A stretch of 64,000 nt of DNA from Thalassobaculum sp. OXR-137 (GTDB taxonomy: Bacteria > Pseudomonadota > Alphaproteobacteria > Thalassobaculales > Thalassobaculaceae): positions 1,178,001 through 1,242,000 of the forward strand of contig NZ_CP139715.1 of the NCBI RefSeq assembly GCF_034377285.1, given 5' to 3'. A program made the translations under genes and the position numbers. The notes below the pieces were generated by a model. It ran no database searches and was not told the DNA's origin. It saw only the letters and a list, made by a program, of their open reading frames with translations. The stretch's first letter is position 1; each line of letters opens with the position of its first letter. Shown here piece by piece: positions 27,235 to 28,455 of this stretch.

Positions 27235-27243
27235 CGTCATCCT
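27235..27243. repeat. Left fragment of REP-like palindrome split by the IS110 element
   Basis: CGTCATCCT, the left tip of a CCGTCATCCTGACG-family palindrome. The rest resumes at 28387 beyond the element. Joining them at the CT dinucleotide restores a copy aligned with the intact one at 20097-20173. Confidence 0.8.
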
Positions 27244-27256
27244 TGTAACTTATCGT

Positions 27257-27425
27257 CTTCCGCTTCTGGTAGAGTTTCGGAAGCGGTGGTGGATGGGACG
27301 CCGAGTCGTCCTGGAGCGTGCGAGCCCGAACGTCAGCAAGGTTGCCCATCCACCGTTCATCCCTCGAACCCGAACAGTCGCCGGGGCCGCCATATGGCGA
27401 GCCCGTTTAGGCAAGGCAGGGTAGC
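27257..27425 (+). ncRNA. Predicted IS110 bridge RNA
   Basis: Non-coding region directly upstream of the transposase with the bridge RNA layout. A 5' hairpin comes first (CCGCTT 27260-27265 / AAGCGG 27281-27286). A target-binding loop follows, closed by a perfect 10-bp stem (27288-27297 / 27345-27354). It holds GTCGTCCT (27305-27312), which matches target GTCATCCT with one G:T wobble, and CGTCAG (27331-27336), complementary to CTGATG right of the insertion with one wobble. A donor loop follows with ACAGTCGC (27374-27381), identical to the element's right end 28380-28387, hairpin CGCCA/TGGCG (27388-27399), and GCAAG (27411-27415) pairing with left end CTTGT. Structure and guides are inferred by eye. 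Confidence 0.72.
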
Positions 27426-27426
27426 G

Positions 27427-28371
27427 ATGGACCAGGTGATCGTGGGTATCGACGTCTCCAAGAGCCGTCTGGATGTTCATATCCTGCTCGGCGCGCAAGG
27501 GCCGGGCGAATGTGAGGCGGTGCCGCGTGACGGCGCTGGGATTGCAGCGTTGGCCGAGCGTCTTGGAGCGCTGGGAGCAACGCTGGTGGGGGTCGAGGCG
27601 ACGGGCGGCTTCGAGACGGTGGTGGCGGCGGGTCTGGCCGGGGCGGGCTTGCCGGTCGTCGTGGTCAATCCGCGCCAGATCCGGGCCTTCGCCCAGGCGC
27701 TGGGACGTCGGGCGAAGACCGATCCGATCGATGCGGAGATGATCGCCCGGTTCCTGGCGGCGACCCGGCCTGAGCCGCGCGCATTGCCCGATGCGTCCGG
27801 CCGCCTGCTGGCCGATCTGGTGGCCCGGCGACGGCAGATCGTGTCGATGATCGCCGCCGAGCGCCAGCGTCAGAGCCGCCTCACGGAACCGCGGGTGCGG
27901 CGCTCGATCCTGCGTCTGATCACGGCCCTGGAGAAGGAACTGAACGAGGTCGACCGCGAGATCGACGACCAGGTCCGCGGCTCGCCGGTCTGGCAGGCAC
28001 AGGAGGATCTGCTGCGCAGCGTGCCCGGCATCGGTCCGGCCACCGCCCGCACCCTGCTCGCCGATCTGCCCGAACTCGGCCGACTGGACCGGCGCCAGAT
28101 CGCCTCCCTGGCGGGGCTGGCACCGTGGACGCGCCAATCGGGAACTTGGCGCGGCAAAGCCTTCATCGGCGGCGGACGCGCGAGCGTACGCACCGCCCTG
28201 TTCGTCGCAGCCATGGTCGGCGCGCGCTACAACCCTACCCTCAAGGCCTTCCACGCCAGACTGATCGCTGCAGGAAAGCCCAAGATGGTCGCCCTCATCG
28301 CCGTCGCCAGAAAGCTGCTTACCATCCTCAACGCCATCGTCAGAGATCAAAAGCCATGGCAAGTCGCTTGA
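27427..28371 (+). CDS. IS110 family transposase (bridge-RNA-guided recombinase type)
   Basis: 314-residue IS110-family recombinase. The N-terminal RuvC-like DEDD domain has Asp9 ([12 protein letters not shown]), Glu57 (GVEATGG), Asp99 and Asp102 ([13 protein letters not shown]). The C-terminal Tnp domain has the helix-hairpin-helix [21 protein letters not shown] and the catalytic serine region [16 protein letters not shown] (Ser253). All key residues are present, so the enzyme is probably active. It cuts and rejoins donor and target DNA at a core dinucleotide under guidance of the upstream RNA. The ATG at 27427 was chosen since the earlier in-frame ATGs would overlap the bridge RNA region. 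Confidence 0.93.
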
Positions 28372-28386
28372 CCAAGATCACAGTCG

Positions 28387-28455
28387 CTGATGCAAATCAG
28401 GATCTGCGGTGCACCGGCGCCGGTAGCTTGGTCCTGACTTTCGTCAGGATGACGG
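28387..28455. repeat. Right fragment of REP-like palindrome split by the IS110 element
   Basis: CTGATGCAAATCAGGATCTGCGG followed by the right arm ending CGTCAGGATGACGG. It aligns with 20105-20173 of the intact copy and continues the fragment at 27235-27243. It lies just before the convergent SDR gene. Confidence 0.85.

Follow-up and report, generated by a model that had tools for sequence, protein, structure and literature searches.

An IS110-group element with a predicted bridge RNA in REP-like palindromes of Thalassobaculum sp. OXR-137

The element, its ends and its genomic copies

The window (the whole 64,000-nucleotide stretch of DNA that we analyzed) contains an IS110-group element at 27242 to 28388, which is 1147 bp long with both CT cores and 1145 bp with one. 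Coordinates are positions in the window, and features are on the forward strand unless stated otherwise. To the left of the element is a remnant of its target, CGTCATC followed by the core CT (27235 to 27243), which was compared with intact sites. To the right is the other CT core and the rest of a REP-like palindrome, including its inverted partner (28387 to 28455). An intact pair of REP-like palindromes (20097 to 20173, no strand assigned) provides two free copies of the target elsewhere in the window. Every sequence that was quoted in a preliminary description of the locus, including this intact palindrome, was found at the position given there.

The element encodes a recombinase of 314 amino acids (27427 to 28371) with an N-terminal DEDD domain (PF01548, 83.8 bits versus a cut-off of 29) and a C-terminal Transposase_20 domain (PF02371, 63.4 bits versus a cut-off of 21.3). 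We located D9, E57, D99, D102, and S253 in the protein, where they line up with IS621; we take these residues to be the DEDD and serine catalytic motifs, and both are retained, as had been proposed. The recombinase thus has both domains of the IS110 family, the catalytic D, E, D, and D, and the conserved serine. Upstream of its gene are about 183 bp of non-coding DNA, and no inverted repeat of at least 12 nucleotides links the ends of the element (an 11-bp repeat is below this detection limit). The long upstream non-coding region and the lack of long subterminal inverted repeats place the element in the IS110 group rather than in IS1111.

The genome that includes the window (5.65 Mb in 3 contigs) has ten full copies of the element. 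Seven copies are identical across 1145 bp and the other three have one substitution each, which indicates that the element has moved recently. All ten copies split the repeated palindrome: each lies within a REP-like palindrome at GTCRTC-CT-GAYG, in the orientation that the guides (described below) dictate. The left flank is GTCGTC in six copies and GTCATC in four; the right flank is GACG in nine copies and GATG in the window copy. The insertion is at the CT in one arm of the hairpin, as the preliminary description claimed from the window copy, and only the CT is duplicated. The agreement of the ten copies in this motif is well beyond chance.

The intact motif is present at 74 places in this genome, versus 2 for a reversed control. 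In three genomes from the same genus, it is found at 65 places (control: 2), 42 (control: 0), and 19 (control: 3), and in two same-genus genomes of 1.5 Mb it is found at 0 places (controls: 0 and 1). These last two, G023 and G024, are single contigs placed in the same genus as a 5.6-Mb genome; both lack the element as well as the repeat and resemble reduced genomes. Despite the abundance of the REP-like repeat, no match to PF01797 was found in the genome that includes the window. This family covers the Y1 transposases, the group of the REP-associated ones.

We also compared the orthologous regions of seven copies in three genomes of the same genus, or 21 loci. In a protein search, none of the three had a close copy of the element: G025 and G027 had no match at E = 1e-20, and G026 had two at 39% identity. 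At 3 of the 21 loci, the palindrome is intact across the site with one CT (L104 for copy L002, L113 for copy L006, and L102 for copy L010). The alignment crosses the site at another three (L116, L105, and L118), where the sequence has diverged, and at the other 15 no alignment spans it. The three intact sites bear out the proposed ends of the element at CT. Empty sites with the reconstructed palindrome are available for these three copies and not for the window copy: in three same-genus genomes, the orthologous spacers (L088 to L090) lack the palindrome, which weighs against our reading of the element. One of these spacers contains another palindromic repeat (L090:1395-1475).

The upstream region, its structure and its guides

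The non-coding region upstream of the recombinase reads as a bridge RNA of the IS621 type. We place the predicted RNA at 27259 to 27425, with an approximate end. The start near 27259 is based on promoter-like boxes that would come together if the ends of the element were joined: a -35-like TTGACC in the right end (28368 to 28373) and a -10-like TAACTT in the left end (27246 to 27251), 17 bp beyond the -35 box after joining. Of 27 elements, 26 have TTGAC (the exception, L028, has TTGAT), and in 19 of the 26, TAACTT is the hexamer 17 bp further on, a spacing that was preset in our script. Once joined, the ends would resemble a promoter.

Folds of single sequences were at most mildly more stable than shuffled sequences (z = -2.00 and -0.85). 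Because these folds were unconvincing, we relied on folding of the alignment. RNAalifold, given 24 elements, predicted 29 pairs, of which 13 are changed on both sides. By comparison, double-change pairs averaged 4.7 in shuffled alignments and ranged from 3 to 8 in slid ones. Similarly, 96.4% of paired cells could pair, versus 90.1% (shuffled) and 34-47% (slid). Both comparisons are biased toward the structure, as it was predicted and tested on the same alignment. Eleven of the 13 double-change pairs are within the stem of the target-binding loop (27288 to 27354). This is the perfect 10-bp stem (27288 to 27297 with 27345 to 27354) that was previously noticed in the window, and it has compensatory changes in relatives. 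The helices of the donor loop are nearly invariant and hence give little information about covariation. A search of 27000 to 28700 with Rfam gave a single match, far below the family's cut-off, which we attribute to chance.

Within the target loop, both guides that had been proposed are present and pair at all ten copies. The left target guide, GTCGTCCT (27305 to 27312), pairs with GTCRTCCT, with a G:T pair where R is A. The right target guide, CGTCAG (27331 to 27336), faces CTGACG at nine copies; at the window copy, it pairs with CTGATG through one wobble. It does fit the intact repeat better, as had been suggested. With one wobble on either side, the window copy's own target is paired more poorly than those of the other copies.

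To compare guides and flanks more broadly, we took 27 relatives whose proteins are about 52-66% identical and aligned their left ends and flanks with the window. The guides were taken from alignment columns and the flanks from the conserved ends. From genomes, 11 of 27 loci were used; the other 16 were L029 and L030 (copies of the L028 element, judging by identity and coordinates), ten partial loci, and four distant ones (36-39% identity). The order-level set of genomes was the same 36 genomes as the family-level set. From plasmids, 16 relatives were used, out of 60 listed among 631 records. L033, whose right flank is truncated and whose left flank contains an N, was excluded from the permutations, and the 27 rows then reduced to 20 distinct guide pairs. 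L035 was kept even though we could not recognize its left end, which makes its left flank unreliable; it counts against the guide reading.

On the right, the covariation of target guide and flank is strong. Across the five non-core positions of the 20 guides, 93 of 100 positions formed strict pairs, versus a mean of 52.1 and a maximum of 72 when flanks were permuted (0 of 20,000 shuffles reached 93), and the guide's own flank was the best or joint best match in 16 of 20 cases. If each of the 13 distinct right guides is counted once, then 60 of 65 positions pair, versus a mean of 29.6 and a maximum of 49 (equaled in 0 of 20,000 shuffles), and 11 of 13 match their own flank joint best. The left target guide appears to covary with the left flank more weakly: 71 of 120 positions pair, versus a permuted mean of 47.2 and a maximum of 65 (0 of 20,000 shuffles), with the own flank joint best in just 7 of 20 cases. 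If G:T pairs are allowed, these values become 83 of 120, versus a mean of 63.1 and a maximum of 85 (2 of 20,000 shuffles), with the own flank best in 10 of 20. The preliminary description had asked whether guides covary with flanks, and these permutations of 20 guide pairs indicate that they do, on the right more than on the left.

Pairing on the left is poor in L026, L045, L077, and L081. L076 and L077, carried by separate replicons of a single Shinella strain, have the same guides, and left pairing is good in one and poor in the other. Because these two pair unequally on the left, mismatches to the left guide seem to be tolerated. Six relatives (L028, L034, L074, L075, L076, and L080) have TT at the left junction and CT at the right, and each of the six has a left guide that ends in TT. 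This fits a TT target core that recombined with a CT donor core.

The donor guides fit the ends of the element in most relatives and change along with the ends in some, with few changes overall. The left donor guide, ACAGTCGC (27374 to 27381), is identical to the right end at 28380 to 28387, as first reported. Guide and right end agree exactly in 22 of the 24 elements aligned; both are ACAGCCGC in L085 and L086. The right donor guide was originally given as GCAAG at 27411 to 27415. That sequence is present, but the guide is better read as a discontiguous TTA-GG-CAAG (27407 to 27415), in which nine RNA bases lie over seven DNA bases (CTTG, then TAA, at 27242 to 27248). Such a discontiguous pattern is described for the right donor guide of IS621 (PMC11208160). 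The three-base part forms standard pairs (allowing G:T) in 21 of 24 elements. Where the left end has TAT instead, L083 has ATA, which pairs fully, and L085 and L086 have ATT, which forms two of three pairs. L081 has just one of three. In L081:616-1790, the guides and ends fit poorly and the protein match is split in two pieces, as if the guides were decaying together with the gene.

RNA bases are also described that, once the strands have been exchanged, pair with the seventh position of the partner DNA (PMC11208158). We infer that these would be C27337, facing donor base 7, and G27416, facing target base 7. All 10 genomic copies have C as target base 7, as do 23 of 28 aligned rows; four rows have T (one of them the unreliable L035) and one has A.

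Mechanism, alternative explanations and choice of target

We consider it very likely that this is a recently active IS110-group element with a bridge RNA that works as in IS621. The element's ends, the target motif, guide covariation, stem changes, and the match to IS621 agree on this reading of the upstream region, which was also that of the preliminary description. By analogy with the IS110 family and IS621, the recombinase would cut the element out in circular form, and the junction of its right and left ends would then provide the promoter from which the bridge RNA is made. In this RNA, one loop would pair with both target strands, the bottom one through GTCGTC-CT and the top one through CGTCAG, while a second loop would pair with the element's own joined ends via ACAGTCGC and TTA-GG-CAAG; the comparisons above support both pairings. 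Pairing directed by the RNA would be followed by serine-mediated exchange at CT. The genome offers many target repeats, which would have allowed the element to spread to ten equivalent sites. What we observe directly is the element's ends, its target, and the covariation of guides with flanks; catalysis, the circle, and transcription of the RNA are extrapolated from IS621.

Three other explanations were considered. First, the recombinase might recognize the REP hairpin as a protein, and the match between non-coding region and target might be incidental. All ten insertions are within a hairpin-forming repeat, and the protein itself has been suggested to direct some other insertion sequences to REPs (PMC1525189). 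However, relatives with 52-66% identical proteins are inserted at very dissimilar sites, in agreement with the guides that they carry, and we consider this explanation very unlikely. Second, the window copy might be a dead relic with remnants of guides, as its target, with one wobble per side, is more weakly matched than those of the other copies. But it is one of the seven identical copies, its reading frame is intact, and the catalytic residues are present, which makes this highly improbable. Third, the palindrome halves could scarcely be part of the element's ends instead of its target: similar halves do flank all ten copies, but three orthologous sites without the element hold the palindrome intact, 74 intact copies of the motif lie away from the element, and relatives have conserved ends with differing flanks.

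If the bridge RNA chooses the target, then sites that match the guides perfectly might be preferred. Six of 10 occupied sites have GTCGTCCTGACG, compared with 19 of the 74 that are free (p = 0.036). A right base of C is found at 9 of 10 versus 39 of 74 (p = 0.024), and a left G at 6 of 10 versus 27 of 74 (p = 0.14). These P values are one-sided and uncorrected, and the free sites are often paired, so a preference of the element for guide-perfect sites is suggestive only.

Retargeting to repeats of the host is seen in three host groups of the clade. Besides the element described here, L027 and L028 are inserted in repeats that abound in their hosts: CTCATCCTGAGG is found 70 times in the genome of L027 (Xanthobacteraceae) versus 1 for the control, and CACCTTCTCCCC is found 70 times in the genome of L028 (Rhizobiaceae), again versus 1. 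CACCTTCTCCCC is also common in G037 (28), G042 (48), G043 (21), G045 (30), G046 (103), G048 (23), and G052 (33), and it is scarce in G036 (1), G040 (6), and G041 (1). In three of these genomes (G042, G046, and G052), the guides of the elements (L033, L037, and L045, respectively) point elsewhere than CACCTTCTCCCC. We tentatively raise the possibility that the clade reprograms its bridge RNA to the abundant repeat of each new host and that copies accumulate at the sites that pair best. If so, guide-target pairing would shape where the element lives.

Comparison with known systems

Bridge RNAs and their natural covariation were published in 2024 (PMC11208160, PMC11208158, and PMC11187229), and the principle is established. 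This element adds a natural data set for the rules of bridge RNAs (wobble tolerance, core use, and natural retargeting): its ten copies are mapped within a single genome, three orthologous sites are empty, and its relatives have 13 distinct right guides. It also adds a compact recombinase (1.15 kb, 314 amino acids) with a readable guide.

Several relatives are already named. ISMex17 and ISMno7, from Methylobacteriaceae plasmids (L079, L084, and L085), share the arrangement of ends and RNA; their proteins are 58.6% and 52.1% identical to ours, and they have other guides and targets. Of the 631 plasmid records with a relative, 570 are from Klebsiella, with about 45% identity among the Klebsiella rows listed. 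Other IS110 elements are reported within REPs for 7/7 (ISPpu9), 7/7 (ISPpu10), 6/6 (ISPa11), and 4/4 (ISRm19) copies (Table 2 of PMC1525189). By these descriptions they resemble our element, in other hosts and other repeats.

Among solved structures, the recombinase matches just two distinct sequences at E up to 0.001. ISCro4 (PDB 9t56) is the best-matching chain (E = 1.2e-35) and was compared by protein only; IS621 of E. coli (PDB 8wt6) follows (phmmer E = 8.6e-35). According to PMC11208160 and PMC11208158, IS621 shares the DEDD and serine recombinase, the CT core, insertion into REPs (also reported in PMC1525189), an upstream RNA with the guides in the order LTG, RTG, LDG, RDG, and the discontiguous right donor guide. 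A promoter that spans the joined ends is described for IS621 as well (PMC11208158); here, it is predicted from sequence. IS621 differs in its diverged protein, its target and donor sequences, its host, and its REP family. The kind of system is thus already known from IS621, and the element described here is a clear new example of it.
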